64,000 nucleotides of DNA from Rhodovastum atsumiense (lineage in GTDB: Bacteria > Pseudomonadota > Alphaproteobacteria > Acetobacterales > Acetobacteraceae), in NCBI RefSeq assembly GCF_937425535.1, contig NZ_OW485601.1:3765501-3829500 (forward strand), given 5' to 3'. Positions 5,788 through 53,967 of this stretch are shown piece after piece; the stretch's first letter is position 1, and each line of letters opens with the position of its first letter. Below the pieces are notes generated by a model. The model was not told the DNA's origin and made no database searches. It saw nothing but the letters and a program-made list of their open reading frames with translations. The position numbers were made by a program, and so were the translations under genes.

Positions 5788-5812
5788 CACGCAAGACAGT
5801 CGCTGGACCCGG

Positions 5813-5936
5813 CAGGGGCCACAAGGCCCCTGCACCCCATAAGCGCTGCGCGGCACAGAATGGGTTCCAAGGGCGAAGCCCTTGGTAGAGGTCCAGGAGG
5901 CAAAGCCTCCTGGTGGGGCGCGGGGCAACGCCCCGC
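5813..5936. repeat. Dispersed tandem-hairpin repeat, copy 1
   Basis: Four consecutive hairpins: CAGGGGCC/GGCCCCTG (5813-5832), CCAAGGGC/GCCCTTGG (5867-5885), CCAGGAGGC/GCCTCCTGG (5893-5913) and GCGGGGC/GCCCCGC (5920-5936). The last three, in the same order and with the same linker (GTCCAGGAGGCAAAGCC), recur elsewhere in this window. The stretch from about 5825 to 5861 also resembles 32249-32286. It lies just after the IS110 recombinase and at the end of the truncated RND operon. Confidence 0.85.
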
Positions 5937-19851: not shown

Positions 19852-19859
19852 AAAAGAAC

Positions 19860-20020
19860 GGGATCCAAGGGCCTTGTGGCCCTTGGCAGGTCCAGGGCAG
19901 CGCCCTGGTGGGGTCTGGGGCGAAGCCCCGGTGGTTCAGGCACCGGGGCTTCGCCCCAGACCCCACCAGGAGGCTTTGCCTCCTGGACCTCCACCAAGGG
20001 CCACAAGGCCCTTGGATCCC
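19860..20020. repeat. Two inverted copies of the tandem-hairpin repeat forming a 160-bp palindrome
   Basis: A forward copy (GGGATCCAAGGGCC at the left) is followed, after a short centre near 19935, by an inverted copy ending GGCCCTTGGATCCC. Each arm contains its own hairpins (AAGGGCC/GGCCCTT; CCAGGGC or CCAGGAGGC with complements; GGGGC/GCCCC). The arms also pair with each other over most of their length. The element sits between convergent genes and would act as a bidirectional terminator or block read-through. Confidence 0.88.
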
Positions 20021-20025
20021 ATTCC

Positions 20026-22017: not shown

Positions 22018-22018
22018 A

Positions 22019-22092
22019 GGGATCCAAGGGCTTTGCCCTTGGTGGAGGTCCAGGAGGCAAAGCCTCCTGGCGGGGCCGGGGCAGCGCCCCGG
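22019..22092. repeat. Dispersed tandem-hairpin repeat, copy in the hydantoin operon
   Basis: Begins GGGATCCAAGGGC two bases after the carbamoylase stop and contains three hairpins in series: CCAAGGGC/GCCCTTGG, CCAGGAGGC/GCCTCCTGG and CCGGGGC/GCCCCGG. It lies between two genes on the same strand and ends 12 bases before the next start codon, so it may tune read-through or mRNA stability within the operon. Confidence 0.85.
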
Positions 22093-30440: not shown

Positions 30441-30647
30441 GGTTTGCCTGCGCCGCCGGGGCCGGGAAGGCGGCCCGCTGTCGGACCCGGCCCTTAGCGC
30501 CGGGGGGCGCGGCGGGTCCATACTGGAACCAGGCGGTTTCCTGATTTCACCGAAATGCCATTCTTGATGTCACGAGGCGGGCTATTTCTTCACGCGATAT
30601 ATGAACTGATTTGCAACGGTTCGACGCGACAGGGGGACAAAAGCCCG

Positions 30648-32177: not shown

Positions 32178-32188
32178 GAAAGGGAAGG

Positions 32189-32241
32189 CGAGGGCGCTGC
32201 CCTCGATCCGGCGTCGCGCGAAGGCGCGCAGTCGCGCGACG
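32189..32241. terminator. Two hairpins after the phosphoesterase gene
   Basis: CGAGGGC/GCCCTCG (32189-32205, 3-base loop) is followed by a 9-bp stem CGTCGCGCG/CGCGCGACG (32212-32241). They sit 11 bases after the stop. The next 45 bases (32249-32286) resemble the left part of the repeat near 5825-5861, so this may be a degenerate relative of the dispersed repeat family. Nothing else is seen up to the small gene at 32467. Confidence 0.55.
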
Positions 32242-32466
32242 CCCACACGGCCCCTGCACCCCGGTCTCGCTGCGCGGCGACAGCATGACCCGGCCATTCA
32301 CCGCGCCGCAGCCGTTCTCAACCCAATGGGTTGACACAGGGGGTCTCACACCTGATCTCCTTGCCTCCACGGCGTTGTGCCCCATCCTCTCAAGCTGGCC
32401 CTGGCGCGATGCTATCCACCAAGGGTAGGAGCTGCGGCGCTTCGCCAACCGGCTGCGGAGGCAGGT

Positions 32467-32634
32467 ATGAGTATTTCGGAGACCACAGAGACATCGGCCG
32501 TTCTGGCGCTGGCGAAAATCCTGATGCGCCAGGCTGATTTCCACGGCAGCCCGAAACTGGCCGAAGACGTCGCTGCCGATCTGTTGCATGACCTTGCTGC
32601 TGCTGGTTGGAAGGTTGAACGGGCAAATGACTGA
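32467..32634 (+). CDS. Small hypothetical protein (55 aa)
   Basis: A short soluble protein, helical and acidic (SETTETSAVLALAKILMRQA; LAEDVAADLLHDLAAAGWKV). GGAGGCAGGT directly precedes the ATG, a convincing ribosome binding site, which is the main reason to accept it. No family recognised. It is isolated between the phosphoesterase and a convergent AraC gene. Confidence 0.5.
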   Translation: MSISETTETSAVLALAKILMRQADFHGSPKLAEDVAADLLHDLAAAGWKVERAND

Positions 32635-32719
32635 CCCGTAAAGCCGACGACCTTGCTCGGGCAGAGCAAAATCAGGGCAGTCATGTCATATTATTCTCCG
32701 GGCATTTCGAATCGGCCTC

Positions 32720-33514
32720 TTACTCCGGGCGGAAATACCGGGTTGGCACGACGCCGAAGACACGACGGAACACCGCGCTGAAGGCACTGGGGCTCTGGTA
32801 TCCCAGGTCGAGCGCGATCCCCAGCATCGGCCGGCCTTCCGCCAGCATCGGCAGGCTGGCCAGCAGCCGCGCCTGCTGGCGCCAATGCCCGTAACTCATA
32901 CCGAGGTCTCGCTGGAACAACCGGATGAAGCTGCGGCGGCTCATGCCCAGTCGCGCTGCCGCCGTGATGAGATCCGGCGCTGTCGCCGGGTCTGCCAGCA
33001 GACCGGCACAGAACCCCGCCAGCCGCGCATCCTGCGGCAGCGGCAGATGCAGCGGCGGATCCGGCAGGAAACGCAGCTCCTCGCGCAGCAGCGCGAAAAG
33101 CTGCGTGGCGAAGCGGCCGGACAGGTCGGCGCGGGGCAGGGCCGTGGCGCGCAGGATCAGCTCGCGCAGCAGCGGCGAGACCGCGACGGCGGCACAACGA
33201 TCCGGCGCCGCGTCCGGCACCGCGTCGGCGCGGAGATACAGCGTGCGGAACGCCACCGCGGCGCGGCTGCCGGTGACGTGCTCGGTCTCCGCCGGGATCC
33301 AGACGGCGCGGTTGGGCGGGATCACCCATTCGCCCTGGCCGGTGCGCACCGTGACGATGCCGGCGCTGGCCCAGACCAGTTGCGCGCGCCCATGCCGGTG
33401 CGGCGGGCTGACGAAGCGGTCGGACGAGTCATGGATGAAGGGAATGACCGGCAGCGCCGGGTCGGCCAGCGCCCGCGCGATGCGTTCCGCCACCGGGATG
33501 TCTGGCCCTTTCAC
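32720..33514 (-). CDS. AraC-family transcriptional regulator with N-terminal cupin
   Basis: A 264-residue regulator. The N-terminal cupin-like sensor includes SPPHRHGRAQLVWASAGIVT and WVIPPNRAVWIPAETEHVTG. The C-terminal double HTH includes AARLGMSRRSFIRLFQRDLG and IALDLGYQSPSAFSAVFRRV, ending GVVPTRYFRPE. This group usually regulates a neighbouring transporter or enzyme gene. Here the divergent neighbour is leuA with its leader region, which need not be its target. Confidence 0.92.
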   Translation of the reverse strand: MKGPDIPVAERIARALADPALPVIPFIHDSSDRFVSPPHRHGRAQLVWASAGIVTVRTGQGEWVIPPNRAVWIPAETEHVTGSRAAVAFRTLYLRADAVPDAAPDRCAAVAVSPLLRELILRATALPRADLSGRFATQLFALLREELRFLPDPPLHLPLPQDARLAGFCAGLLADPATAPDLITAAARLGMSRRSFIRLFQRDLGMSYGHWRQQARLLASLPMLAEGRPMLGIALDLGYQSPSAFSAVFRRVFGVVPTRYFRPE

Positions 33515-33560
33515 GACGATCCTTGGCCCTTCCGCGCGCGCGTGTCGCCCGGGCGGGGGC

Positions 33561-33566
33561 TATACT
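33561..33566 (+). promoter_or_regulatory. Candidate -10 element of the leuA leader transcript
   Basis: TATACT lies 27 bases upstream of the leader ORF start and matches the -10 consensus at five of six positions. No convincing -35 is visible at the right distance (GC-rich), so promoter assignment is tentative. Confidence 0.35.
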
Positions 33567-33592
33567 GGCTTTTGCTTCGGACCTGAAGGCGG

Positions 33593-33676
33593 ATGGTGAT
33601 CCTGTTGCCCGCATCCCTGTGCCTCGCGTCGTGCTGCCGTGGCGGGCTGCGACTTCGGTGCGGCCGCCGGGCCTGA
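33593..33676 (+). CDS. Candidate leucine-rich leader peptide upstream of leuA
   Basis: A 27-residue ORF (ATG at 33593, TGA at 33674) reading MVILLPASLCLASCC, then RGGLRLRCGRRA. Six of 27 residues are leucine, and four are cysteine. GAAGGCGG lies immediately upstream. The stop codon falls in the loop of a GC-rich hairpin, 74 bases before the leuA start. This layout resembles amino-acid-dependent attenuation, in which ribosome stalling at Leu codons alters the hairpin. The Cys content is unexplained. It is inference; the ORF is short. Confidence 0.45.
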   Translation: MVILLPASLCLASCCRGGLRLRCGRRA

Positions 33677-33692
33677 CGGCGACCCGGTGGCC
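33662..33692 (+). promoter_or_regulatory. Candidate attenuator hairpin before leuA
   Basis: GGCCGCCGGG (33662-33671) pairs with CCCGGTGGCC (33683-33692), including one G-U pair, across an 11-base loop that contains the leader-peptide stop codon. No T-run follows, so any termination would be non-canonical; it might instead sequester downstream sequence. Confidence 0.4.
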
Positions 33693-33749
33693 GTAGTCGC
33701 GCCGTGCTTCGCGTTTCCTTTGCACGACCCTCCGGCACAAGGTGGCATC

Positions 33750-35435
33750 ATGCTGCGTCACCCCCAGACCAAGTACCGTCCCTTTTCCCCGATGTCCCTG
33801 CCCGATCGCGGCTGGCCCGACCGGGTGATCACCGCCGCGCCGCGCTGGTGCTCGACGGATCTGCGCGACGGCAACCAGGCGCTGGTCGATCCCATGGACG
33901 TCGCGCGCAAGCGGCGTTTCTTCGATCTGCTGCTGCGCATCGGCTTCAAGGAAATCGAGATCGCCTTCCCTGCGGCGTCGCAGACCGAGTTCGATTTCGT
34001 CCGCCTGCTGATCGAGCAGGACCTGATCCCCGAAGACGTGACGCCGCAGGTGCTGACCCAGTCGCGCGCGGAGCTGATCGAGCGGACCTTCGAGTCCCTG
34101 CGTGGTGCCCGGCAGGCCATCGTGCATCTCTACAACGCCACCGCGCCGGTGTTCCGTCGCGTGGTGTTCGGCCAGGACGAGGCGGGCACGATCGCGCTGG
34201 CGGTGTCCGGCACGCGCCTGATCCGCGCGCGGGCCGAGGCGGCGCCGCAGACGCGCTGGACCTACGAGTATTCGCCGGAAACCTTCTGCTTCACCGAGCC
34301 GGATTTCGCCCTGGAGGTCTGCGAACGGGTGATCGAGGCCTGGGACCCGTCGCCGGCGCGGCCGATGATCCTGAACCTGCCGGCCACCGTGGAAGTGGCG
34401 ACGCCCAACGTCTATGCCGACCAGATCGAGTGGATCTGTCGGCACCTGTCGCGGCGGGACGCGGTGACGATCAGCGTGCATCCGCACAATGACCGCGGCA
34501 CCGCGGTTGCCGCGGCCGAACTGGCGGTGATGGCCGGCGCGGATCGCGTCGAGGGCTGCGTGTTCGGCCATGGCGAGCGCACCGGCAATGTCGATCTCGT
34601 CACCCTGGCGCTGAACCTCTACACGCAGGGCGTCGATCCGGGGCTCGATTTCTCCGACATGCGCGCGGTGGTCCGCACCATCGAGGACTGCACCCGCATC
34701 GGCGTGCATCCCCGCCATCCGTACGCGGGCGAACTGGTCTTCACCGCCTTCTCCGGATCGCACCAGGACGCCATCCGCAAGGGCTTCGCCGCCCGGGCCA
34801 GCGGCAACGATGCGACCTGGGAGGTGCCCTATCTTCCGGTCGATCCGGCGGATCTCGGCTGCAGCTACGAGGCGGTGATCCGCGTCAACAGCCAGTCCGG
34901 CAAGGGCGGCGTCGCCTGGGTGCTGGAACAGGAGCAGGGGCTGCGCCTGCCGCGCCGCCTGCAGGTCGCCTTCAGCCGCGTCGTGCAGGCAGCGACCGAT
35001 GCGAGCGGGCGGGAGATGGCGGCCGCCGACATCGTCGCGCTGTTCCGCAGGACCTACGGGCTGGAGGGCGAGAAGCGGCTGGCGCTGGCCGGTTACACGC
35101 TGGCGCCACCGGGACGGAAGGGGGGATCACGCCGGTTCAGCGGGCGGGTGGTGCTGGACGGGCGGATGCTGGTGATCGCGGGGGAGGGGAACGGCCCGCT
35201 TTCCGGGCTGGCCGATGCGCTGGCCCGGGACGCCGGCCTCCGGCTGGACGTGGTGGACTACCAGGAACACGCGATCGGCCAGGGTGTGCAGGCCATGGCG
35301 GCGGCCTATGTGGAATGCGCGCTGCCGGACGGGCGCATCGTCTTCGGCGTGGGCATCGACGCCGACAGCGCCTCCGCCTCGATCGAGGCGTTCATCGGCG
35401 CCGCCAACGCGGCCTTGTCGTCGCCGGCGGGCTGA
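33750..35435 (+). CDS. leuA: 2-isopropylmalate synthase
   Basis: A 561-residue enzyme that condenses acetyl-CoA and 2-oxoisovalerate, the first committed step of leucine synthesis. It is the long, fungal/actinobacterial-type form: N-terminal RPFSPMSLPDRGWPDRVI, catalytic barrel with STDLRDGNQALVDPM and HPHNDRGTAVAAAELAVMAG, GCVFGHGERTGNVDLVTLAL with the metal-binding region, and a C-terminal LeuA regulatory domain (RRFSGRVVLDGRMLVIAGEG). ATG 33750 follows AAGGTGG. No other leu genes are adjacent. Confidence 0.96.
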   Translation: MLRHPQTKYRPFSPMSLPDRGWPDRVITAAPRWCSTDLRDGNQALVDPMDVARKRRFFDLLLRIGFKEIEIAFPAASQTEFDFVRLLIEQDLIPEDVTPQVLTQSRAELIERTFESLRGARQAIVHLYNATAPVFRRVVFGQDEAGTIALAVSGTRLIRARAEAAPQTRWTYEYSPETFCFTEPDFALEVCERVIEAWDPSPARPMILNLPATVEVATPNVYADQIEWICRHLSRRDAVTISVHPHNDRGTAVAAAELAVMAGADRVEGCVFGHGERTGNVDLVTLALNLYTQGVDPGLDFSDMRAVVRTIEDCTRIGVHPRHPYAGELVFTAFSGSHQDAIRKGFAARASGNDATWEVPYLPVDPADLGCSYEAVIRVNSQSGKGGVAWVLEQEQGLRLPRRLQVAFSRVVQAATDASGREMAAADIVALFRRTYGLEGEKRLALAGYTLAPPGRKGGSRRFSGRVVLDGRMLVIAGEGNGPLSGLADALARDAGLRLDVVDYQEHAIGQGVQAMAAAYVECALPDGRIVFGVGIDADSASASIEAFIGAANAALSSPAG

Positions 35436-35443
35436 GGCGCAGC

Positions 35444-35470
35444 GCCCCGGGGCCTGGCAGGCCCCGGGGC
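35444..35470. terminator. Terminator-like hairpin after leuA
   Basis: An 11-bp GC-only stem, GCCCCGGGGCC/GGCCCCGGGGC, around TGGCA, nine bases after the leuA stop. No T-run follows. The DNA changes soon after to a markedly more AT-rich composition (about 35520-35800). Confidence 0.6.
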
Positions 35471-35644
35471 TGTCCGGATGGGAAGGTCTGCGGCGAGAGG
35501 ATCGCCGGCAACCTGTCAAGTTTCAGAACGTTCCTAAATAACGACATATCAGGCATCATTAACCTGAGTGGCTTCTACGGTTGGGATGCGTGTTTAGATG
35601 CGATTCCGGGTTGATTGTTGGGTTCAAAGGCCAAGGAAACGACA

Positions 35645-37018
35645 ATGTTCGAAGTTGAATCCTCTGACCGGTTATTCTGCATCGTCCTGGACAAATGGCT
35701 GGCCTTTGCCATCTCGTATTCGGACATTCCTGGTTTGCAGATTGCTGTCCGTAAAAAAGAAAAGTTAATATTTTCAAAATCTTATGGCCTGGCTGATCTC
35801 GAGGGGGCTGAAGCCTATACGCCCCGCCATCTCGGGCATCTGGCCTCCCAGAGCAAAATGGTGACGTCGTGCCTTACGATGCAACTTGTCCAGGACGGGG
35901 TCCTGACGCTGGATCAACGGCTTGCGAAGCTTGTTCCTTGGGCCGGCGCGCACAAGGACAACAGATTCCGCGACATCACTGTTCGTGATCTGCTTTCGCA
36001 CCGCTCGGGGCTGTGCAGCAACGGCAGTGAAGGAAGCTATTGGGAATTATTCCGGGATTTCCCATCGGAGGCACAATTTATCGCGGAACTGAAGGAAACG
36101 CCTCTGGTCTATGCCCCGGATACCTGCACGAAGTACTCCAATTACGGATTCGCTCTGCTCGGCCTTGTCCTGCAAGAGGTGACGGGAAAGCCGTACCATG
36201 CCCTGGTCGCAGAGGCGGCCGCACGACGGTGGCGGATTTCGGAACTACTTCCTGACCATGCGGAGGGACAATTCCCCTTCGCGACAGGATATTCCAAGAA
36301 AATCTATGATGGTGCCTGCAAGCCCTTCCGGCATGTGTGCGCGAACGCGCTGGCCCCGGCGGTCGGCCTTTGCGGGAACGCGGAATCGGCATCGCTGTTT
36401 GCCTGGCGCTACTACTGCAGCAACGACTTCCTGACTCCGGCCCTTCGGGAGGAGCTGACCCGTTCAAAGTGGAACATCAAGAACCTGACTGAGGAATTTT
36501 ATGGCCTTGGCACGATGTTTTCGCCGTTCAAGGACACGTTCCTGACAGGGCATTCCGGAAGCACGCCGGGGTTCTACTCCCAGACACGCTATCTGGCCGG
36601 GACCGATTATGTTTTCAGCGTGGTGGTCAACGGGAGCGAGCCGGTCGCGGCGAGCATCGTCTGCTCGGTGGCGAGGCTGTTGCATAACCTGGCGCGGAAT
36701 TTCGACGACGTCGAATCCGGCACCGTCATCACTTCCGATATCCTGATGAACTGGTGGGGGGCAAGCCTCTACGCCGTCTCGCCCCGACGGGCTTTGCTCT
36801 TCTCCGTGTCAGGGTGGGGGTTCGGCGACTGCACCGCCCTGGAACGTCGTGCTGACGGCACCTACGCCAGTGACGACATCAGCGGATATAGCAGCGTGGG
36901 GGAGGCTGTCCGATTCAAACGGGACGGGGAGAAGATCGTCGAGGCGAAATTCGCCGCCTTCACCGCACTGCCTTTTGCCGACTTCATCACGAAATCCCAG
37001 GTTTCCTTTACCTCCTGA
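35645..37018 (+). CDS. Serine beta-lactamase-like hydrolase (class C / esterase fold)
   Basis: A 457-residue protein with the penicillin-binding-protein-like fold: nucleophile SxxK at Ser68-Lys71 (GHLASQSKMVTSCL), YxN at Tyr164-Asn166 (TKYSNYGFALLGLVL) and an HxG third motif at 303-305 (TGHSGSTPGFYS). No signal peptide is evident, which suggests a cytoplasmic esterase or D-aminopeptidase rather than a true beta-lactamase. AAGGAAACG precedes the ATG. The first about 50 codons and upstream region are AT-rich compared with neighbours (for example GAAAAGTTAATATTTTC), suggesting recent acquisition. Confidence 0.85.
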   Translation: MFEVESSDRLFCIVLDKWLAFAISYSDIPGLQIAVRKKEKLIFSKSYGLADLEGAEAYTPRHLGHLASQSKMVTSCLTMQLVQDGVLTLDQRLAKLVPWAGAHKDNRFRDITVRDLLSHRSGLCSNGSEGSYWELFRDFPSEAQFIAELKETPLVYAPDTCTKYSNYGFALLGLVLQEVTGKPYHALVAEAAARRWRISELLPDHAEGQFPFATGYSKKIYDGACKPFRHVCANALAPAVGLCGNAESASLFAWRYYCSNDFLTPALREELTRSKWNIKNLTEEFYGLGTMFSPFKDTFLTGHSGSTPGFYSQTRYLAGTDYVFSVVVNGSEPVAASIVCSVARLLHNLARNFDDVESGTVITSDILMNWWGASLYAVSPRRALLFSVSGWGFGDCTALERRADGTYASDDISGYSSVGEAVRFKRDGEKIVEAKFAAFTALPFADFITKSQVSFTS

Positions 37019-37100
37019 TACGCATGGCCCGGGGGCTGCCGGGCCCCGGTGCTTTCCGGGGCGGCAGGTCATCCGTTCCCGAGCAGGCGTCCCGATCCAT

Positions 37101-37727
37101 CTACCCATAAAGGTCATGGCGCATCGCATGGTCGTAATGCGCATCGATTGCCTCGGCGGCGGCGGCATCCGCGCCACTCATCGCGGCCACCATCTGGCCG
37201 GGGGTGGGCAGGCTGCTGCGATCGATCCGGGCCGCGGGATCCCATAGCCGGGCGCGGTTCACGGCCTTGCCGCAATGAAACAGCACCTCTTCCACCGTCA
37301 CCACGATCGCGGTCCTGGGCAGCTTGGGTCCTTCGGCCAGCGCCGTTCGCAGGTCGGCATCGGCGGTGACACGCCCGCGCCCGTTGATCCGCATGAAAAC
37401 ATCGAGGCCGGGGAAGAGAAACAGCATGCCCAGCCGGTCGTCCTCCAGCAGGTTGCGCATCGACTCGATCCGGTTGTTGCCGGGCCAATCGGCGAATGCC
37501 ACCGTCTTTGCGTCGATGACCCGCACGAACCCCGGAGGCCCGCCGCGCGGCGAGGCGTCGAGCCCGATGCTGCGCCCGGTTGCCAGGCAGAAGAAGGTGG
37601 CCTTCTCCAGATACCGGACATGGAAGGGGATCAGCGCTGGCATCACCGCCTTCCGGATACGTTCCGTGGGTGGATCGTAGAGCAGGTCGAGATCGGGCCT
37701 ATCGGAGGAAAGGGGGGGTTCAATCAT
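37101..37727 (-). CDS. Pyridoxamine 5'-phosphate oxidase-like flavin-binding protein
   Basis: A 208-residue split-barrel flavoprotein of the PNPOx-like group: FHVRYLEKATFFCLATGRSI, the substrate/FMN phrase LDASPRGGPPGFVRVIDAKT, NRIESMRNLLEDDRLGMLFL and the C-terminal VEEVLFHCGKAVNRARLW. Family members bind FMN and reduce diverse substrates; true PNPOx activity is unlikely. It is divergent from an AraC regulator only 70 bases away. Confidence 0.9.
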   Translation of the reverse strand: MIEPPLSSDRPDLDLLYDPPTERIRKAVMPALIPFHVRYLEKATFFCLATGRSIGLDASPRGGPPGFVRVIDAKTVAFADWPGNNRIESMRNLLEDDRLGMLFLFPGLDVFMRINGRGRVTADADLRTALAEGPKLPRTAIVVTVEEVLFHCGKAVNRARLWDPAARIDRSSLPTPGQMVAAMSGADAAAAEAIDAHYDHAMRHDLYG

Positions 37728-37797
37728 GGCGGGCTCCTGTCGGTCTTTCAGGATAGCCGATGGGGGCTGGCGCCGCTAAGCTGTACCGGCCAATCGA

Positions 37798-38592
37798 TTG
37801 CGAGTTCCCGCCATTCTTGAGGGCAAGCTCAGCCTCGCCGCCCGCAATGCCAGCGAACCGCTGATCGTCGCGGTTGCTGATGCCCGCCAGGCCATTCGCA
37901 GCACCGAACTGCACAGCCACGCCCGTGGCCAGATCACGGCGATCCGGCGTGGCGTGGTAACCGCGGGGACCGAGACCGAAGCCTGGGTGGTCCCGCCCGA
38001 CCATGCCGTGTGGATGCCGCCGCACCAGCTGCATTTCGGCTATTCGCACGGCCTGTTCGACAGCTGGAGCTGCTACGTCGCCGAGCCGTCCTGTGCCGGC
38101 CTGCCGGAGCGCCCCTGCACGATACGGGCCTCGGGCCTGCTGCGCGAAGCGGTGCTGCATGCGGCGAGTTGGCAGGATCCGGTGCTTGACGAACGGCGTC
38201 TCCGTGTCGCCCTGATCATCCTCGACGAACTTCACGCGGCTCCGGTTGAATCTTTCAGCTTGCCCATGCCGAAGGATCCACGCCTGCTCCGGATCGCCCG
38301 TGCCCTCCTCAACGATCCCGGTGATCGTCGCGGCATGGATGCGTGGGCATCCTGGGCCGCTGTTTCCGAACGCACCCTGAGCCGCCGCTTTGCCGCGGAG
38401 ACCGGATATAGCTACACCGCCTGGCGCCAGCGCGTTCGGCTGATGCGGTCCCTCGAACTGCTGGCGGACGGAGCACCGGTGACCACCGTCGCCCTGGATC
38501 TCGGCTATGACAGTGTCAGCGCGTTCATCGCCCTGTTCAGGCGTACGCTGGGCATGACTCCCTCGGCTTATTTCGGGCGGTACCAAAGGTAG
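37798..38592 (+). CDS. AraC-family transcriptional regulator
   Basis: A 264-residue regulator similar in build to the one at 32720: a cupin N-terminus (TELHSHARGQITAIRRGVVT; VVPPDHAVWMPPHQLHFGYS) and a double HTH (WAAVSERTLSRRFAAETGYS; VALDLGYDSVSAFIALFRRT), ending GMTPSAYFGRY. The frame has only a TTG start in this region; no ATG fits. The divergent PNPOx-like gene is the likely target. A REP palindrome begins six bases after its stop. Confidence 0.88.
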   Translation: MRVPAILEGKLSLAARNASEPLIVAVADARQAIRSTELHSHARGQITAIRRGVVTAGTETEAWVVPPDHAVWMPPHQLHFGYSHGLFDSWSCYVAEPSCAGLPERPCTIRASGLLREAVLHAASWQDPVLDERRLRVALIILDELHAAPVESFSLPMPKDPRLLRIARALLNDPGDRRGMDAWASWAAVSERTLSRRFAAETGYSYTAWRQRVRLMRSLELLADGAPVTTVALDLGYDSVSAFIALFRRTLGMTPSAYFGRYQR

Positions 38593-38597
38593 CAAGC

Positions 38598-38627
38598 GTA
38601 GGGCGGATAAGCGCAGCGCCATCCGCC
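38598..38627 (+). repeat. REP palindrome upstream of the RAYT gene
   Basis: GTAGGGCGGATAAGCG followed by CAGCGCCATCCGCC: a GTAG head and a hairpin GGCGGAT/ATCCGCC. It differs at only two of 30 positions from the copies downstream of the transposase gene and points in the same direction as the third copy. Confidence 0.88.
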
Positions 38628-38671
38628 ATCAGCACCTTCCGCGATCCCCGGTATCACCGCATACTCCCCGC

Positions 38672-39205
38672 ATGCCGGACTATCGTCGCAATCGCGTCGT
38701 GGGCGGAATATTTTTCTTCACGGTCACTCTGTGCGACCGAGATTCCGACTTGCTGGTCCGCCGCATCGAGGCCCTGCGCGACACGGTGCGCGAGGTCCGT
38801 GCCCGGAGGCCATTTTACATCGATGCCTGGGTCGTGCTGCCCGACCACATGCATTGCCTTTGGACCCTGCCGCCGGGCGATGCCGATTTTCCGGGGCGGT
38901 GGCGCGCGATCAAGACCGCCTTTTCCAAAAGGTTGCCTGCCGGCGAGCCGCGGTCGACGGTGATGATCGCCCGTGGCGAACGGGGCATCTGGCAACGGCG
39001 CTATTGGGAGCACACGATCCGCGACGAGAGAGACTATGCCGCTCACATGGATTACATCCATTTCAATCCGGTGAAGCACGGTTACGTCACGCAGCCGCAG
39101 GATTGGGCTTATTCGACGTTCCGGCATTGTGTGATGCAGGGACTCTATCCGGCCGGATGGAGCGGCGGTTGTGCGGAGCCGGCTGGGACAGGCGAGCGGC
39201 CGTGA
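38672..39205 (+). CDS. REP-associated tyrosine transposase (RAYT, Y1 HUH superfamily)
   Basis: A 177-residue single-strand transposase. The HUH motif is His59-x-His61 (WVVLPDHMHCLWTLP) and the catalytic tyrosine is most likely Tyr128 (HMDYIHFNPVKHGYV). GIFFFTVTLCDRDSDLL at the N-terminus and GIWQRRYWEHTIRDERDY are typical of the family. RAYTs are usually single-copy chromosomal genes that act on REP sequences. Here one REP lies 45 bases upstream and an inverted pair 48 bases downstream, a complete REP-RAYT unit. A cysteine and proline-rich tail extends the C-terminus. Confidence 0.93.
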   Translation: MPDYRRNRVVGGIFFFTVTLCDRDSDLLVRRIEALRDTVREVRARRPFYIDAWVVLPDHMHCLWTLPPGDADFPGRWRAIKTAFSKRLPAGEPRSTVMIARGERGIWQRRYWEHTIRDERDYAAHMDYIHFNPVKHGYVTQPQDWAYSTFRHCVMQGLYPAGWSGGCAEPAGTGERP

Positions 39206-39252
39206 GGGGCTTGGTCAAGAAACAAGCGGCGGGCGGAGATTGAGGACCGATC

Positions 39253-39333
39253 GGCGGATTGCGCTTCGCTTATCCGCCCTACACCAACCGGCCTCTGACG
39301 GCCGTAGGGCGGATAAGCGAAGCGCAATCCGCC
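39253..39333. repeat. Inverted REP pair downstream of the RAYT gene (BIME-like)
   Basis: Two REPs face each other: the complement of GTAGGGCGGATAAGCG-type sequence at 39253-39282 and a direct copy at 39304-39333, 21 bases apart. The two are identical over 30 bases in inverse orientation, so the pair can form a single long hairpin or two small ones, as in bacterial interspersed mosaic elements. Confidence 0.9.
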
Positions 39334-39360
39334 ATCGCAACGTGCCGCCCGGCATCGATT

Positions 39361-39405
39361 GCCGCATCCGTCCGCCGGGCCGGTGTCCCGGCGGACGGAT
39401 GCGGC
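39361..39405 (-). terminator. Strong 19-bp hairpin downstream of pheC
   Basis: GCCGCATCCGTCCGCCGGG (39361-39379) pairs perfectly with CCCGGCGGACGGATGCGGC (39387-39405) around a 7-base loop. It begins 18 bases after the pheC stop (on the minus strand), the right place for its terminator, and also closes the REP region. Confidence 0.8.
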
Positions 39406-39422
39406 CTGGCATCAGTCGCCGG

Positions 39423-40223
39423 TCATTGCAGCCATTTGGCGGTCAGGCGGGCGTATTCACCGGTTTCCTGGCTGACGTGCAGCCACTGGTCGATCCATGC
39501 CTTCAGCACGGCGTCGCGCGGCAGCAGATAGGCGAGTTCCCCGAAATCGAAGGGACGGTCCGGATGGATGGCGCAGAGCTGCGGATGCAGCTTCTGCTGC
39601 AGCCGGGTCTCCACGGAGTCCGTGATCATCACGTCACCCTTCCCGGCGACCAGGGCGTCGAAGATCGCGGTGTTGGTCGGAATCATCACGATCTCCGCGG
39701 CCTTGAGGTTGGCGCGGTCGAAGCGCTCGTTGGTGCCGCCGGGATTGGCCAGCACCTTCACGCCGGGCCGGTCGATGGCGGCGAGGCTGTCGAAGCGGTC
39801 CTTGTCGGTGCAGCGGGCGATCGCCGCCTTGCCGGTGCGCACCAGCGGGGTGGAGAAGAAGGCGGTCTTCTGCCGCTCCAGCGTCACCGAGATGCCGCCC
39901 ATGGCAAGGTCGAACCGGTCCGCGGCAAGGTCGCCGAGCAGGCCGCCCCAGGTGGTGGGCACCAGCTCCACCTTCACGCCAAGTGCGCGGCCGAGGCTTT
40001 CGGCCATGTCGACATCCAGGCCCTCGAATGTGCCGCTGGCCTTGTCGAGCAGCGAGAACGGCCGGTAATCGCCGGTCAGGCCGACGCGGATGGTGCCACG
40101 GGCGAGGATGGCGTCGAGCTTCGAGCTTTCCGCGTGGGCCGGGGTGGAGGCGGCGGGCAACAAGGCAAGGGGCGTAGCCGCCAGCACGAGGGCCAGCAGG
40201 ATCGGGCGCAGCAGATGGCGCAT
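39423..40223 (-). CDS. pheC: Periplasmic cyclohexadienyl dehydratase (prephenate/arogenate dehydratase)
   Basis: A 266-residue protein with a signal peptide (LLALVLAATPLALLPAASTPA). The mature part has a solute-binding fold but carries motifs of PheC: TGDYRPFSLLDKASGTFEG, MGGISVTLERQKTAFFSTPL, NPGGTNERFDRANL, MITDSVETRLQQKLHPQLCA and HPDRPFDFGELAYLLPRD. PheC converts prephenate to phenylpyruvate (or arogenate to phenylalanine) in the periplasm. It stands alone, with no ABC genes, which supports an enzyme rather than a transporter component. Confidence 0.85.
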   Translation of the reverse strand: MRHLLRPILLALVLAATPLALLPAASTPAHAESSKLDAILARGTIRVGLTGDYRPFSLLDKASGTFEGLDVDMAESLGRALGVKVELVPTTWGGLLGDLAADRFDLAMGGISVTLERQKTAFFSTPLVRTGKAAIARCTDKDRFDSLAAIDRPGVKVLANPGGTNERFDRANLKAAEIVMIPTNTAIFDALVAGKGDVMITDSVETRLQQKLHPQLCAIHPDRPFDFGELAYLLPRDAVLKAWIDQWLHVSQETGEYARLTAKWLQ

Positions 40224-40310
40224 GGGGGAGTCGCTCCGTGGTTACGGGACGATATTGAACGCCGCGCCGGGATATGCGGCAATCCTCCAGCCAGGGCGTC
40301 CTGCGCCGCC

Positions 40311-40343
40311 ATTGCGGGGGAGATCGGTTTTCGCGCAACGTGC
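40311..40343 (+). repeat. 33-base repeat, copy upstream of the P-loop gene
   Basis: ATTGCGGGGGAGATCGG followed by TTTTCGCGCAACGTGC. It matches a second copy at 40969-41001 at 29 of 33 bases. Each copy lies 20-30 bases before a start codon. TTGCG and CGCAA within it are complementary. Confidence 0.6.
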
Positions 40344-40371
40344 TGATCGCCCAACGCATGACGAGGGAACC

Positions 40372-40899
40372 ATGCCGGTCATCTGGCTCAACGGCACCAT
40401 CGGGGCGGGCAAGAGCGCCGTGGGCCAGGCCCTGGCCGTGCGGCTGCCGGCGTCGCGGTTCCTCGACGGTGACGACCTTGCCGGGCCGTCACATCTGCCG
40501 AATCCCCGGCGCTGGCGCATGGCCCTGGATGCCCTGCTGCGCGCGGCGGCACGGCCGGGGCGCCAGGCCGCGCTGGTGATCGCCTATCCGCTCGACGCGG
40601 CCGGATGGCGGCGGCTGCGGACGGTGTGCGGCCGGGGGCGGCGGGCCTTGGTGGTGCTCAACCTCGCGCCGCCGCTGGCCATGACGTTGCGTGGCCGTGG
40701 CGGCAGGAATTTGTCACCGCCGGAACGGGCGCGGGTGCGGGTGATGCGCGCGGAGGGCTATCACCGCCGCCCCTTCGCCACGGCCACGCTGGCCAATGCC
40801 GCGTCCTCTGCCGCCGGGACCGCCCGCCGCATCGCCCGCCTGCTGCCCGTGTGGGTGGCGCACCGGCCCTCGCGCAACGGCATCGGGCCGATGAGCTGA
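40372..40899 (+). CDS. P-loop nucleotide-binding protein, kinase-like
   Basis: A 175-residue protein opening with a Walker A motif (VIWLNGTIGAGKSAVGQAL) and continuing with a short nucleotide-kinase-like domain (FLDGDDLAG; ALVIAYPLDAAGWRRLR; LAPPLAMTLRGRGGRNLSP). GAGGGAA precedes the ATG. It resembles shikimate- or gluconate-kinase-type P-loop proteins but no lid or substrate motif is decisive. Substrate unknown. Confidence 0.75.
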   Translation: MPVIWLNGTIGAGKSAVGQALAVRLPASRFLDGDDLAGPSHLPNPRRWRMALDALLRAAARPGRQAALVIAYPLDAAGWRRLRTVCGRGRRALVVLNLAPPLAMTLRGRGGRNLSPPERARVRVMRAEGYHRRPFATATLANAASSAAGTARRIARLLPVWVAHRPSRNGIGPMS

Positions 40900-40968
40900 A
40901 TCGGGAAAGCCCGCCCTTCCCGCGAAAGCCGACGATGCGGGCACCGGTCGCGGTGCAGCGTTTGTTTC

Positions 40969-41001
40969 ATTGCGGACAAGATCGGTTTTCGCGCAAGGTG
41001 C
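40969..41001 (+). repeat. 33-base repeat, copy upstream of the alpha/beta hydrolase gene
   Basis: ATTGCGGACAAGATCGG followed by TTTTCGCGCAAGGTGC, the partner of the copy at 40311-40343, and 21 bases before the ATG of the hydrolase. A weaker relative of its right half (complement of GGCGCAACGTCCTGATC) lies near 44868-44890. Confidence 0.6.
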
Positions 41002-41021
41002 AGCGCGGCCAGAAGGGGCGG

Positions 41022-42008
41022 ATGCGGCCCAAGCTGGAAATCCTTGTGCTGGCCTGCCTGCTTCTGGCCTGGCCTGGCCGGGCGGAAGAACCGAACATGT
41101 CGCAGGAAACCACGCTGCAGGCACCCGGACCGAACGGACCGCTCGCGGGCACGCTGCTGGTGCCGCCGGTTCCCGGCGCGCCCGTCGTTTTCATCATCCC
41201 CGGCTCCGGGCCGACCGATCGCGACGGCAACAGCCCGTTCGGGATCAGGGCGTCCACCTACCGGCTGCTCGCCGAGGATCTGGCGGCGCGGGGGATCGCC
41301 TCGCTGCGCATCGACAAGCGCGGCCTGTTCGGCAGCCACCATGCCATCCCCGACGCCAATGCCGTGACCATCGACGACTATGCCGCCGATGTGCGGGCCT
41401 GGATCGGCGTCCTCCGGCAGCGGACCGGGGCCGCCTGCGTCTGGGTGCTGGGCCATAGCGAAGGCGGGCTGGTGGCGCTGGTCGCGGCGCAGCAGCCCGG
41501 CGCGATCTGCGGGCTGATCCTGGTCGCCACCGCTGGCCGCCTGCTCGGCCAGGTGCTGCGCGACCAACTTGGGGCAAACCCCGCCAACGCCGTCTTGCTG
41601 CCCCAGGTCGAGGCCGTGATCGCCACCCTCGAAGCCGGGCAGAGAGTAGCGGCAGAGGAGATTGATCCCGCGTTGCGCTCCCTGTTCCGCCCCGAGGTGC
41701 AGGGCTTCCTGATCGATGCCTTCGCACGCGATCCGGCGCGGCTGATTGCCTCCGTTCCCGGGCGCGTGCTCATTCTGCAGGGCCTGCGGGATCTTCAGGT
41801 CGGGCGGGTGGATGCGGAACGCCTGGGCCTCGCCCGCCTGGAGGCGAGGCTGGTGTTCGTCGATGCGGCCAACCATGTCCTCAAGGCCGTGGCGAGCGAT
41901 GGGCGCTCCGACAACATCGCGGCCTACCAGGATCCGGACAGGCCCCTGGCGCCGGGCGTGGTCGATGCCATTGCCGGCTTCATCGCCAGCAACACGGAAA
42001 GCCGCTGA
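41022..42008 (+). CDS. Exported alpha/beta hydrolase
   Basis: A 328-residue protein with a signal peptide (LEILVLACLLLAWPGRAEEP). The nucleophile elbow is WVLGHSEGGLVALVAA (GHSEG). The likely acid is in LQGLRDLQVGRVDAE and the histidine in VDAANHVLKAVASDG, in the correct order. An oxyanion region IIPGSGPTDRDGNSPFG is near the N-terminus. AAGGGG precedes the ATG. It would act in the periplasm as an esterase or peptidase; the substrate is unknown. Confidence 0.87.
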   Translation: MRPKLEILVLACLLLAWPGRAEEPNMSQETTLQAPGPNGPLAGTLLVPPVPGAPVVFIIPGSGPTDRDGNSPFGIRASTYRLLAEDLAARGIASLRIDKRGLFGSHHAIPDANAVTIDDYAADVRAWIGVLRQRTGAACVWVLGHSEGGLVALVAAQQPGAICGLILVATAGRLLGQVLRDQLGANPANAVLLPQVEAVIATLEAGQRVAAEEIDPALRSLFRPEVQGFLIDAFARDPARLIASVPGRVLILQGLRDLQVGRVDAERLGLARLEARLVFVDAANHVLKAVASDGRSDNIAAYQDPDRPLAPGVVDAIAGFIASNTESR

Positions 42009-42033
42009 CCCGGGCGGTGTGTTCCCCGGCCGT

Positions 42034-43902
42034 TCAGTCGATCTTTTCCAGGCTGATCCGCGCGTCGATGTCGCGGCGGATCGCCGGCAGCGCCCGCGCC
42101 GCCTCGGCCCGCCGGGCGCCCTCGCAGAGCGCCTGGTCGGTCGTGGACACCAGCGAGCGTCGTACCCTGACCGCGCCTTCGGTGAAGCTCCAGTGGCTCT
42201 CGTAGCGAAAGAAGCTGCCGTCCACTGCCACGTCCCTGGGCAGGCGCGCCGGACGGGTGCCGGAGGGCAGCATCAGGGTCAGCTCTTCTTCCTGGCGTCC
42301 GGCATGGCAGGGGGTCGGTTCCAGTGCAGGCAGGTCATGCCGTTCCAGTGGCCCGATCGGCCCATCACCGGTGCGCTGGAGCAGGCGCAGCCCGGTCGGC
42401 ATCATGAAGCTGTCACCCTCCACCCAGCCCGGATGCGGGACAAGCGCGAACCGTCCCTCGCTGCTGGCCTGCGGCTCGGTGCCTTCCGCCGCGACGGCGG
42501 TGAACTCGCCCTCGCCGTCCTGGTGCAGGGTTCGCAACTGCCGGGCCGCGGCCGCACGGGGTTCCTGCGCCACAATCGCGCGCCCGACGATGCGCAGCGC
42601 GGTGACATAAGGGCCGCTCGCCTGCGTCGTGCTCGTGCCGCTGACGGTGCCGTCGGCGGCCAGGGTCGCGCGGGTGGACAGATGTTCGGTCGCCACCTCG
42701 GGCGGCAGCGGGGCGATGCGGCCCGGTGCCGCCCCCGCCGCCGTGACGCGCAGCACCGGCTTGCCGTATTCCCGCAGCGGCAGCGTGCCGAAGGGCGCGC
42801 CGCCGGCCGTGGTGTCCGCGTACAGGTCCCAGTCCGGCAGGTAGGTGATGGTGTGGTCGAAGCGGAAGACCGGCGGCTCGCTCAGGGTATAGGTCGGGGC
42901 GAGGTTGATCAGCACCGGTTCGGCGGCGATGCCCCTGGCCCGCAGCAGGGCGACCAGCAACGTCGCCTGGTCCTTGCAGTCGCCGTAGCCGCGGTCGAGC
43001 ACGGACTCGGCGGTGTGCGGCACCCAGCCATCGTTGCCAAGCCAGATCGCCACCCAGCGCACATGCCGGCTGACCCAGTCGTACAGCAGGCGCGCCTGCT
43101 CGCGCCGGTCGGTGGTGCCGGCGGTGACTTCCTCGGCGAGCGTGCGGAGGCGTGGCGTCACCGCCGCCTGCGGCGCCACCACGGCCGCGTAGTCGCGCGA
43201 GAACGCCGGCCAGTCGGCGAAGGTCGAAGCGAACAGGCGCGGCGCCCGGTCGAACGGCGCCAGCGCGGCGGGATCCTCGGCGAGCGCATCCGGCGCGCGG
43301 TAATGCCAGTGATAGACATGCCGTCCATCCGTCGCCGTGCTTTCTTCCAGCACCGGCCCGTGCGCCTCGGTGCGCAAGGGCTTGCCGGCCGGGGTGGTGA
43401 TGCGGACCTCGACGCTATCCCAGGGGGTGGTGCGCGGGAAGGCCCAGCCGAAGGAGAATTCGCCCGGGACCACGGGATGCGTGAGGGTCCAGCGCCAGGT
43501 GGTGACCAGCAGGTCCCCGCCGGCGGCATCGGGCAGCACCGCCACGATCTGCTTGCGGTCGGTATACAAAGGCAGGTTGGGGGTGCCTGGCGCGAGCTGC
43601 GTCCGCACCGCGCGGGGCTCGACGGGAATGCGCCGCCCGTCCGGTTTCTGCGTGTAGCCCTCGACCAGTTCCACCTGCTCGATCGCTTCCGAGAACTGCC
43701 TTGCCTGCTGGGCCTGGCGCCGGGCGATGGCATCGTTAGCGACGGCGAATTCCAGGTGCTGCGTTCCCACCGCCGTGCCGTCTTCGTGGACCTCGATATC
43801 CCAGAGGAACGCGCGGGTACGCAGCGGCGGCTCGGCCGCAAGCGCGAGGCCGGAGAACGTCGCAGCCGAGGCGACGATCCCGAGCCGGACCCAAACTGAC
43901 AT
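42034..43902 (-). CDS. DUF3857 / transglutaminase-like exported protein
   Basis: A 622-residue protein with an N-terminal signal peptide (LGIVASAATFSGLALA), a DUF3857 beta-rich domain (about 30-240) and a transglutaminase-like domain with the catalytic triad Cys309 (DRGYGDCKDQATLLVALL), His350 (RFDHTITYLPDW) and Asp363 (DLYADTTAGG). The chosen ATG has GGAGG 6 bases upstream. Family members are periplasmic or surface proteins thought to act as peptidases or cross-linkers; the role is not established. It converges on the alpha/beta hydrolase gene. Confidence 0.88.
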   Translation of the reverse strand: MSVWVRLGIVASAATFSGLALAAEPPLRTRAFLWDIEVHEDGTAVGTQHLEFAVANDAIARRQAQQARQFSEAIEQVELVEGYTQKPDGRRIPVEPRAVRTQLAPGTPNLPLYTDRKQIVAVLPDAAGGDLLVTTWRWTLTHPVVPGEFSFGWAFPRTTPWDSVEVRITTPAGKPLRTEAHGPVLEESTATDGRHVYHWHYRAPDALAEDPAALAPFDRAPRLFASTFADWPAFSRDYAAVVAPQAAVTPRLRTLAEEVTAGTTDRREQARLLYDWVSRHVRWVAIWLGNDGWVPHTAESVLDRGYGDCKDQATLLVALLRARGIAAEPVLINLAPTYTLSEPPVFRFDHTITYLPDWDLYADTTAGGAPFGTLPLREYGKPVLRVTAAGAAPGRIAPLPPEVATEHLSTRATLAADGTVSGTSTTQASGPYVTALRIVGRAIVAQEPRAAAARQLRTLHQDGEGEFTAVAAEGTEPQASSEGRFALVPHPGWVEGDSFMMPTGLRLLQRTGDGPIGPLERHDLPALEPTPCHAGRQEEELTLMLPSGTRPARLPRDVAVDGSFFRYESHWSFTEGAVRVRRSLVSTTDQALCEGARRAEAARALPAIRRDIDARISLEKID

Positions 43903-43943
43903 TCCAGGCCTCCGCACTTACATTTCGTTACGTTCGGCATAGC

Positions 43944-44300
43944 ATGGGGACCGTCCGTGCGAAAATAGCCAAACCGGAACAATATGCCCGGGCGGAAACC
44001 CGCCCTTCCCGGGCACGCTATCTGCGGCAAGCAACGGAAAGCCAAACGCCATGCCGCAGTCGCGTGCCGCTGGCGTTGCTGTTGATCGCGGGGGGCTTCC
44101 TGGGCTTGCTTCCGATCCTGGGCTTCTGGATGGTGCCGGTCGGCCTGCTGCTGCTGGCCGGGGACGTGCCGTTCCTGCGCAAGCCGGCAATGCGGGCGCT
44201 GGCAGCGGTGCAGCGTTGGTGGGATCGGTATTCCCGGCGCCGGGACGGTGCCGGGGCAGCGATGAGGGAGCGCGATGGCCGCGACCGGGCAGCCGGGTGA
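43944..44300 (+). CDS. Small membrane protein, unknown function
   Basis: A 118-residue protein with a basic N-terminus and two closely spaced transmembrane helices (VPLALLLIAGGFLGLLPILG and FWMVPVGLLLLAGDVPF), then an amphipathic basic tail (MRALAAVQRWWDRYSRRRDG). The start is uncertain because no good ribosome binding site is seen; internal starts are possible. Its 3' end overlaps the DUF924 gene by 26 bases, suggesting co-transcription. Confidence 0.6.
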   Translation: MGTVRAKIAKPEQYARAETRPSRARYLRQATESQTPCRSRVPLALLLIAGGFLGLLPILGFWMVPVGLLLLAGDVPFLRKPAMRALAAVQRWWDRYSRRRDGAGAAMRERDGRDRAAG

Positions 44301-44865
44301 TCCGAAGTCTTCCGCCCCGCCGCCGGTACCGCCCGAGGCGCGCGCGGTCGTCGATTTCTGGCGCGACGCCGGGCCTGGCCTGTGGTTCGCCAAGGATGCC
44401 GGTTTCGACCGCAGGTTTCGCGACCGCTTCCTCGCCTGGCACGAGGCGGCGGCGCGCGGCGACTGCGACGGCTGGATCGCCACGCCCGAAGGCGCCCTCG
44501 CGCTGCTGTTGCTGCTGGACCAGTTCCCGCGCAACGCCTTCCGGGGCACCCCGCGGATGTACGCGACCGACGCGATGGCGCGCGTCGTCGCCGCCAGGGC
44601 GATCGCGGTCGGCGCCGATACCGGCGTCGCGCCGGCCCTGCGGCAATTCTTCTGCCTGCCCTTCGGCCATTCGGAAGACCCGGTGGATCAGGACCGCTCG
44701 GTCGCCTTTGCCGCGCGCCTCGGCGAACCGGACCTTTCCCACGCGCGGCGGCACCGCGACATCATCCGGCGGTTCGGCCGCTTCCCGCACCGCAACCCGA
44801 TCCTCGGCCGTGCCATGACGGTGCAGGAGCAGCGCTTCCTCGACGAGGGCGGCTATTCCGGCTGA
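44275..44865 (+). CDS. DUF924 family protein
   Basis: A 196-residue cytoplasmic protein with the DUF924 signatures: AVVDFWRDAGPGLWFAKDAG, DRRFRDRFLAWHEAAARGDC, ALALLLLLDQFPRNAFRGTP and a C-terminal RHRDIIRRFGRFPHRNPILG. The family is common in proteobacteria, is TPR-like and helical, and has no firm function. It overlaps the preceding membrane-protein gene. Confidence 0.9.
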   Translation: MAATGQPGDPKSSAPPPVPPEARAVVDFWRDAGPGLWFAKDAGFDRRFRDRFLAWHEAAARGDCDGWIATPEGALALLLLLDQFPRNAFRGTPRMYATDAMARVVAARAIAVGADTGVAPALRQFFCLPFGHSEDPVDQDRSVAFAARLGEPDLSHARRHRDIIRRFGRFPHRNPILGRAMTVQEQRFLDEGGYSG

Positions 44866-44948
44866 CAGGATCAGGACGTTGCGCCGGAATTGACGGCCGC
44901 GCCGGAACGGTATCACCTTTGCCGACCAGGGAGGGGGAGGCCGCAGTC

Positions 44949-45458
44949 ATGAAACCCAGCGTCGTCGTGCGAGAAGCCAGGCGCAGCGATCTGCACTTCA
45001 TCATGGCGGCCGAGCGCGTGCCCGGCTTCGAGCGGATCATCGCGCAATGGTCGGAAACGCAGCACCGGGCGGCGATGGCGTCGGACGACCATGCCTATCT
45101 GATCGGCACCGACCCGGCGGGCGATCCCTGCGCCTTCGCCCTCATCCACGATCTGCACGACGCGCATGGCAATGTCTGCCTCAGGCGGATCGCCGTGGCC
45201 CGGCCGGGCCAGGGGGTCGGCAGCGTGTTCCTGGCCCGGGTGGTGCGCCGGATCTTCACCGCGACGCGGGCGCATCGCCTGTGGCTCGACGTGCTGGCCG
45301 AGAATGCCCGGGCCCGGCATGTCTATGCCGCGCAGGGCTTCGTCGAGGAAGGCCGGCTGCGCGCCGCCTTTCAGCGCCCGGACGGCAGCCGTGCCGATCT
45401 GGTGGTGATGTCGCTGCTGCGCCCGGACTGGCAGGGCCGGCAGGCCATCGCCGCCTGA
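44949..45458 (+). CDS. GNAT family N-acetyltransferase
   Basis: A 169-residue acetyltransferase. The acetyl-CoA-binding motif A is LRRIAVARPGQGVGSVFLAR, followed by LWLDVLAENARARHVYAAQG, the typical motif B, with FVEEGRLRAAFQRPDGSRAD at the end. A strong GGAGGGGGAGG precedes the ATG. Substrate unknown; the sequence resembles the RimJ/RimL-like branch. Confidence 0.9.
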   Translation: MKPSVVVREARRSDLHFIMAAERVPGFERIIAQWSETQHRAAMASDDHAYLIGTDPAGDPCAFALIHDLHDAHGNVCLRRIAVARPGQGVGSVFLARVVRRIFTATRAHRLWLDVLAENARARHVYAAQGFVEEGRLRAAFQRPDGSRADLVVMSLLRPDWQGRQAIAA

Positions 45459-45501
45459 CCAGGCCGAAGCCCGCCAGGGGCCCTGGCCTTGCGGCCGTGG
45501 C

Positions 45502-53863: not shown

Positions 53864-53932
53864 GCGGGGTTTCACCCCGCACCCGACCAGGGCTCCGCCC
53901 TGGACCTGCCAAGGGCTTCGCCCTTGGAACCC
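53864..53932. repeat. Dispersed tandem-hairpin repeat, inverted copy
   Basis: Read on the minus strand it gives the same order as the other copies: CCAAGGGC/GCCCTTGG, CCAGGGC/GCCCTGG and GCGGGGT/ACCCCGC. It lies between the convergent XRE-cupin gene and the small secreted-protein gene at 53968, where it could terminate both. Confidence 0.82.
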
Positions 53933-53967
53933 ATGAATTTTTTGGGCAGCGCCAGCGCCCTGGCCCT

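Follow-up and report, generated by a model that had tools for sequence, protein, structure and literature searches.

Among the described systems of repetitive extragenic palindromic (REP) sequences, the REPtron Ec of E. coli (tnpAREP with y, z1 and z2 REPs; group 2; structure 4er8) is closest to the one considered here, with the same HUH and tyrosine residues and C-terminal tail in its enzyme, a single gene copy, and GTAG REPs that have an interrupted stem and are paired as heterodimers (PMC8266576, PMC3733652). According to the published account, the E. coli enzyme recognises single-stranded REPs through their GTAG, cleaves near the REP between C and T, and proceeds through a 5'-phosphotyrosine intermediate to strand transfer; Y115F is a catalytic mutant, and K82 contacts a bulged base (PMC8266576). 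In the same account interrupted REPs pair with group 2 and perfect REPs with group 3 enzymes, i.e. interrupted-stem and perfect-palindrome REPs are currently assigned to two separate enzyme groups (PMC8266576). In Pseudomonas fluorescens SBW25, REPINs consist of two inverted REPs with a spacer of set length, and are extragenic and capable of hairpin formation (PMC3116915). An arrangement REP(+)-RAYT-REP(-) was described for the RAYTs of Stenotrophomonas by Nunvar et al. 2010 (PMC2817692), and in Anabaena variabilis dimers of GTAG-15 REPs lie in long palindromes (PMC3733652). REPs have also been counted in Lichenicola cladoniae, another alphaproteobacterium (PMC12306157), and no report joining "repetitive extragenic palindromic" with "Rhodovastum" was found in a limited literature set.

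The locus reported here lies in a 64,000-nucleotide stretch (hereafter the window) of the chromosome contig (C1; 6,482,810 bases) of a genome of nine contigs and 7.42 Mb. The host is likely strain G2-11 of Rhodovastum atsumiense, a non-magnetotactic phototroph whose published assembly agrees with these figures (a chromosome of 6.48 Mb plus eight plasmids) and for which conjugation and the making of a deletion mutant are on record (PMC9938234). An intact open reading frame of 177 codons (38672-39205, + strand) encodes a RAYT (TnpAREP), scoring 197 bits against the NCBIfam model NF047646 (REP_Tyr_transpos, cut-off 80) and barely passing Pfam Y1_Tnp (PF01797, about 24.2-24.7 bits, cut-off 23). 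The nearest solved structure by sequence is 4er8, the E. coli TnpAREP-REP complex (E 4.6e-51), and the same entry (4er8_A) is the best PDB match of the predicted fold (E 7.8e-19, TM 0.79/0.84; AlphaFold2 model with mean pLDDT 87.4, residues 166-177 below 50). The protein is 52% identical to E. coli TnpAREP, from which it differs by a 13-residue insertion before the GIW motif and by T82 in place of K82, and it aligns with 4er8 from residue 1 into the C-terminal tail, an extension of the group 2 type (some 20 residues) without extra N-terminal residues. Its HUH motif (H59-M60-H61, codons at 38846-38854, + strand) and catalytic Tyr128 (39053-39055, + strand) align with H59, H61 and Y115 of the E. 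coli enzyme; both histidines and the tyrosine are invariant in an alignment of 35 sequences, so that a closer alignment found the catalytic residues in place, as the preliminary description had claimed for the HUH pair and the tyrosine.

A wider comparison covered 88 RAYT loci, i.e. the best 80 of 566 confirmed on named genome contigs and 8 from the genus, one of them (L060) a 52-residue fragment; H59 is present in 87 and H61 in 86 of these. At the GTAG-contact positions Q95, 100 and R104 of E. coli the window RAYT has Q, E and R (the middle residue is printed as D100 in PMC8266576 and is E100 in 4er8), contacts that are relatively conserved in group 3 as well (PMC8266576) and hence cannot separate the two groups. 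The bulge-contacting K82 of the E. coli enzyme is a threonine here, and position 82 is variable, with lysine in only 4 of the 88 loci (best 80 of 566 plus 8 from the genus); K82 is therefore probably no defining feature of group 2 TnpAREP. Judged by its sequence, the RAYT is of the E. coli (group 2) type, in a comparison without a group 3 sequence.

Three 30-nt REPs flank the gene; allowing up to 3 mismatches, the window contains no further match, and 100 dinucleotide shuffles gave none. The upstream copy (38598-38627, +), with its GTAG head at the left end, lies 44 nt before the start codon; the first downstream copy (39253-39282, -), with GTAG at the right, outer end, lies 47 nt after the stop codon; the third (39304-39333, +) follows after 21 nt and is identical to the second and inverted, the GTAG heads of both facing each other. 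The upstream REP differs from these two at 2 of 30 positions. As single-stranded DNA each REP folds to an interrupted hairpin (-10.2 kcal/mol for the upstream copy, -10.2 to -10.7 overall), with a 7-bp stem interrupted by unpaired bases and an inner stem of 3 bp, and a single long hairpin is possible for the two downstream REPs together (-47.0 kcal/mol, z -12.65). The preliminary description, which had proposed a complete REP-RAYT unit with three near-identical GTAG REPs within about 50 bases of the gene, is borne out on these points. The sequence AGCAAGC (38591-38597) precedes the upstream REP and overlaps the TAG stop codon of the neighbouring gene, which encodes an AraC-family regulator (37798-38592, +); among 62 REPs of this long type in the genome, the commonest bases at -7, -6 and -4 are A, G and A, and position -1 is T or C in 59. 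On the other side lies a gene for a family 3 solute-binding protein (39423-40223, -). Just past its stop codon a perfect 19-bp inverted repeat with a 7-nt gap (39361-39405, -29.9 kcal/mol) was observed, perhaps the terminator of this gene and unrelated to the REPs. Elsewhere in the window, a 248-nt inverted repeat (3327-3574 and 45765-46012, 72% complementarity) perhaps represents paralogous genes on opposite strands.

The REPs are not confined to the locus. The REP pattern has 62 exact matches in the genome (reversed-pattern control 0), all on the chromosome contig and none on the eight smaller contigs (C2-C9), and the REP body has 70 matches at up to 1 mismatch. DNA was fetched around 67 of these 70 places (C1:4585720, 4593659 and 5617450 were left out), and, the short REPs (see below) included, 59 REP units were read, excluding places without a REP at up to 6 mismatches (e.g. 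2590754, with 7) and a degenerate second REP beside 3075759. If the units were spread evenly, their chromosome-only placement would have a chance of 0.0003. A search of plasmid records yielded only 3 partial 40-nt matches of 87.5%. The units comprise 40 pairs with GTAG outside, 3 pairs with GTAG inside, 15 single long REPs and one triple. The 40 (of 43 two-REP units) are REPINs, inverted pairs with GTAG outside and a set spacer, exactly 34 nt long in 34 of them; they measure 76-94 bp, their spacers are related to each other in sequence, and the units probably extend a few nucleotides beyond GTAG/CTAC. Only 2 of the 59 units fall in coding-like open reading frames, compared with 167 of 236 control windows (by the author's own GC-phase test). 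Within 1 Mb of the RAYT there are 27 of 57 units against 17.6 expected (KS P 0.025); clustering opposite the start of the record is nearly as good (KS P 0.078), and no claim of clustering near the RAYT is made.

Two of the 59 units belong to the RAYT locus: the upstream REP (among the 15 singles) and the downstream pair. The latter (39253-39333) is one of the 3 pairs with GTAG inside, its heads pointing inward across 21 nt, and hence no REPIN; the dispersed unit, of opposite GTAG orientation, is not a copy of it, and the close pair was rejected as the mobile unit since GTAG lies inside in just 3 of 43 two-REP units. A second inward-facing pair of long REPs, 23 nt apart, was noted at C1:1612205-1612287, where it adjoins a copy of a larger hairpin repeat (see below).

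A comparison of RAYT loci gives a different view of the downstream REPs. GTAG hairpins within 300 bases form the frame REP(+)-RAYT-REP(-) in 54 of the 88 loci (best 80 of 566 plus 8 from the genus), opposite-strand hairpins are found on both sides in 6, and the bracket does not occur in 20 sets of shuffled flanks. This is the canonical frame of RAYT loci, and in the window it is formed by the REPs at 38598 (+) and 39253 (-). What distinguishes the locus from those of Stenotrophomonas is that a third REP follows and that two of the three GTAG heads face inward (PMC2817692). Immediately beyond this third REP, ATCGCAACGTGCC (39334-39346, +) resembles one end of the REPIN spacer, end A (ATCGCAACGCTCC), with a score reached by 0.04% of 5,000 random 22-mers from the window; the 3' flank of the upstream REP has a marginal likeness (P 0.044, uncorrected), and that of the 39253 (-) REP has none (P 0.59). 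Because a sequence like spacer end A follows it, the third REP looks like half a REPIN. The copies and orientations given in the preliminary description, one REP upstream and an inverted pair downstream, thus stand; of the two downstream REPs, the first (39253, -) is preferably taken as the closing member of the frame and the second (39304, +) as an additional, third REP.

The same results bear on the proposal that the REPs are terminators or mRNA stabilisers selected at gene ends, with an incidental association to the RAYT. It would account for the 57 of 59 units outside coding-like open reading frames and for the -47 kcal/mol hairpin that the downstream pair can form. It leaves unexplained why GTAG-outside flanks bracket the RAYT in so many of the 88 loci and in no shuffled flanks, and why REPINs have a set spacer length and polarity (see below), neither of which a terminator needs; we consider it hardly tenable.

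The frame has the same geometry as a REPIN, GTAG outside, with the gene replacing the spacer, and this lends some appeal to the alternative of an autonomous element of the IS200/IS605 kind, bounded by the inverted REPs and taking the RAYT gene along when it moves. So does the comparison with relatives: five of the 6 genus relatives encode the solute-binding protein found beside the RAYT, at 78-84% identity, and the five corresponding loci (L165-L169) share only that gene with positions 30001-46000 of the window and have no similar RAYT DNA that could be found beside it. A different sequence, by eye like another conserved gene, follows the gene there; no close homologue of the AraC neighbour was found in the 6 relatives, and the DNA next to the RAYT appears to have undergone rearrangement in the window's genome. 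A search for an empty site of the locus in the 6 relatives yielded none, as the neighbourhood differs. An IS200/IS605 element would be expected in several or mobile copies, each bounded by a left and a right end; here there is one copy in 7.4 Mb, with no second copy, remnant or empty site found, and the protein resembles 4er8 more than it does the TnpA of IS608 or ISDra2. An element of this kind is accordingly very unlikely.

Within the genus, REP counts broadly follow the RAYT in 7 genomes, several of which are fragmented so that counts may be low. Against 70 REPs in the window's genome, there are 13 in G004 (RAYT copies of 72%, 66% and 63%), 6 in G001 (72% and 52%), 2 in G005 (one RAYT of 63% plus fragments), none in G003 (one of 52% and a fragment), one, with one mismatch, in G002 and none in G006, the last two having no RAYT match.

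The REPINs of the window's genome contain REPs of two types. The long type (L, GTAGGGCGGATAAGCGCAGCGCAATCCGCC) has the interrupted stem of the REPs flanking the RAYT; the short type (S, GTAGGGCGGACGCAGTCCGCC) is by sequence a perfect 7-bp palindrome, with 32 matches at up to 2 mismatches (control 1), unlike the three E. coli REP types, which all have a mismatch bulge (PMC8266576). The 40 REPINs divide into 23 LS, 12 LL and 5 SS units. The short REPs were sought at up to 4 mismatches in the fetched DNA and up to 2 genome-wide, so that SS units may be undercounted, as may LS units, the "single" at C1:4364602 being followed by a decayed short REP. All 23 LS units have the same polarity when judged against a leave-one-out consensus, with end A of the spacer next to the long REP and end B next to the short REP; the GI REPINs of SBW25, by comparison, are symmetrical (PMC3116915). 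The two arms of LL units differ from each other by 4 mismatches versus 13.8 in shuffles (P 0.00015), and those of SS units by 0 versus 3.2 (P 0.21, not significant), in shuffles that ignore descent. Since LL arms are more alike than shuffled arms, copying of one arm onto the other is suggested for LL units. Mixed REP pairs as such are not new, because heterodimers with loops of different length have already been reported in enterobacteria (PMC3733652).

Both types appear to be served by a single enzyme. One protein matches NF047646 and one matches PF01797 in the genome, and profile searches with these two models, the ones used among HUH families, found no second RAYT or other Y1_Tnp enzyme. 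A separate transposase for the short REPs was looked for and not found with NF047646 and Y1_Tnp; the RAYT itself barely clears the latter model (24.7 bits), and a divergent second Y1 enzyme could escape it.

A short perfect-palindrome REP is present on at least one flank of 5 of the 88 RAYTs (L022, L061, L084, L142 and L148; best 80 of 566 plus 8 from the genus). Three of these, L022, L142 and L148, share with the window RAYT a branch of 14 rows (ultrafast bootstrap 100, SH-aLRT 89) in a midpoint-rooted tree from which the fragment L060 was omitted. REP architecture does vary, therefore, within one branch of E. coli-like RAYTs. This is no refutation of the group 2/group 3 scheme, group 3 sequences having been outside the comparison. 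Two other RAYT loci, L145 (in the genus relative G001) and L084 (Amphritea sp.), have a long interrupted as well as a short perfect REP of similar stem in their vicinity, which suggests that long/short pairing recurs.

Taken together, the locus is a REPtron of the ordinary kind, and its novelty is confined to its being one more member. We put at about 0.88 the probability that it is a canonical one, in which a single chromosomal copy of an E. coli-type (group 2) RAYT stands between two long REPs in inverted orientation, joined by an apparent half REPIN, and whose enzyme disperses, or has dispersed, REPINs in trans. The RAYT would bind the GTAG-tagged REP hairpin as single-stranded DNA, cut near it with formation of a Tyr128-5' phosphate link, and rejoin the DNA elsewhere in the genome, acting from or through this locus; the units so moved would be pairs of REPs with GTAG outside and a spacer of usually 34 nt, mostly an interrupted-stem REP with a short perfect palindrome, and the RAYT would not move itself. 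The locus would then be the source of the REPs of this genome, as the preliminary description had put it. The T82 that replaces the bulge-contacting K82 is a point against this reading.

A source role cannot be distinguished here from that of a RAYT that maintains old REPs. It may be that the REPs spread in the past and that the protein is now domesticated or resting, with a housekeeping role or none, the locus being no active source. A single copy without a sign of mobility of its own fits this, and so does the published statement that tnpAREP is closer in its behaviour to housekeeping genes and has given no evidence of being mobile (PMC8266576). Against it stand the 22 long REPs that are identical to one another and the restriction of strict LS units to the window's genome, with 12 there and none in the 149 other genomes of a family-wide sample of 150, which includes only two further members of the genus; both fit expansion within the lineage. 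We regard a domesticated RAYT as a real possibility of less than even odds; it shares the anatomy of the REPtron and differs on present activity, and its odds overlap with those of the canonical reading. For SBW25, REPIN excision reads exist (PMC3116915); the REPINs described here are known from the genome sequence alone.

Besides REPs, the genome contains a mosaic family of larger hairpin repeats, with copies in the window at 5803-5935, 19856-20024, 22016-22081 and 53865-53934. Eight copies fold at -54.7 to -76.3 kcal/mol, several of them consisting of two halves that form one cruciform-like hairpin and others being half copies. The tail of the repeat, CCCATTCGCGCTGCGCGGCACAG, has 173 matches in the genome (control 7); the signal lies in this longer tail, and GCGGCACRGCA was rejected as a genome-wide target repeat when its count proved equal to that of the reversed pattern (78 vs 78). 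All 83 zero-mismatch tails are on the chromosome contig and none on C2-C9 (chance 0.00001 if even), and they are not clustered near the RAYT (P 0.54; REPs vs tails P 0.020). The preliminary description had regarded the REPs as distinct from these larger repeats. That is correct for their sequences and not for their placement, 21 of the 59 REP units being flanked by the larger repeat, 4 of them on both sides.

This association is seen in 25 of 118 REP-unit flanks of 80 bases (3 of the 25 matches being shorter than 30 nt) versus 1 of 236 control flanks, which were taken 600 and 900 nt away, mostly in coding-like DNA, and were not matched for intergenic position; part of it may come from both kinds of repeat being extragenic. 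Such a shared location does not explain a fixed offset. Downstream of 9 of the 83 zero-mismatch tails a long REP starts at 5-11 nt, in 6 cases at exactly 5 nt and in one of the 9 in opposite orientation; no long REP was found within 60 nt upstream of these tails. For the remaining 74, none of the REPs read lies in the 60 nt that follow the tail, and the flanks of the RAYT locus have no match to the family. Clues on the mode of nesting come from C1:916343, where the arrangement CACAG-AGTC-ATGGG of REP-free copies reads CACAG-AGTC-[AGCAGGC-REPIN-ATCGA]-ATGGG. The REP-free copies are a possible related empty site for this REPIN, and retention of their junction AGTC beside it favours its insertion into the larger repeat. 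In the predicted folds of 25 REP-free copies, bases at the insertion site are unpaired in 50% of cases (126/250) versus 33-34% overall, which only weakly suggests insertion at the unpaired tip. The GTAG-15 dimers of A. variabilis are likewise found inside or beside a second palindromic repeat, but palindromes lacking REPs were not found there, in contrast to the 74 REP-free tails here; the same text mentions a few comparable nestings (PMC3733652).

These observations allow a more speculative extension of the canonical reading, which we put forward as a doubtful combination: that one E. coli-type RAYT disperses REPINs with two unlike ends, an interrupted-stem REP and a perfect palindrome, that it prefers to insert them at the tips of larger cruciform-forming repeats, where these would be single-stranded, and that LL and SS units derive from the polar LS form by arm copying. 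RAYTs of one supported branch (100/89, 14 rows) are flanked by either REP type. The interest of the locus lies in its mixed-end REPINs, which a single enzyme seemingly serves, and in their position next to another family of repeats. The system offers a clean test bed: a single enzyme of this kind found in a single genome, REPs of two architectures, and a further repeat that may provide numerous target sites, empty as well as filled.
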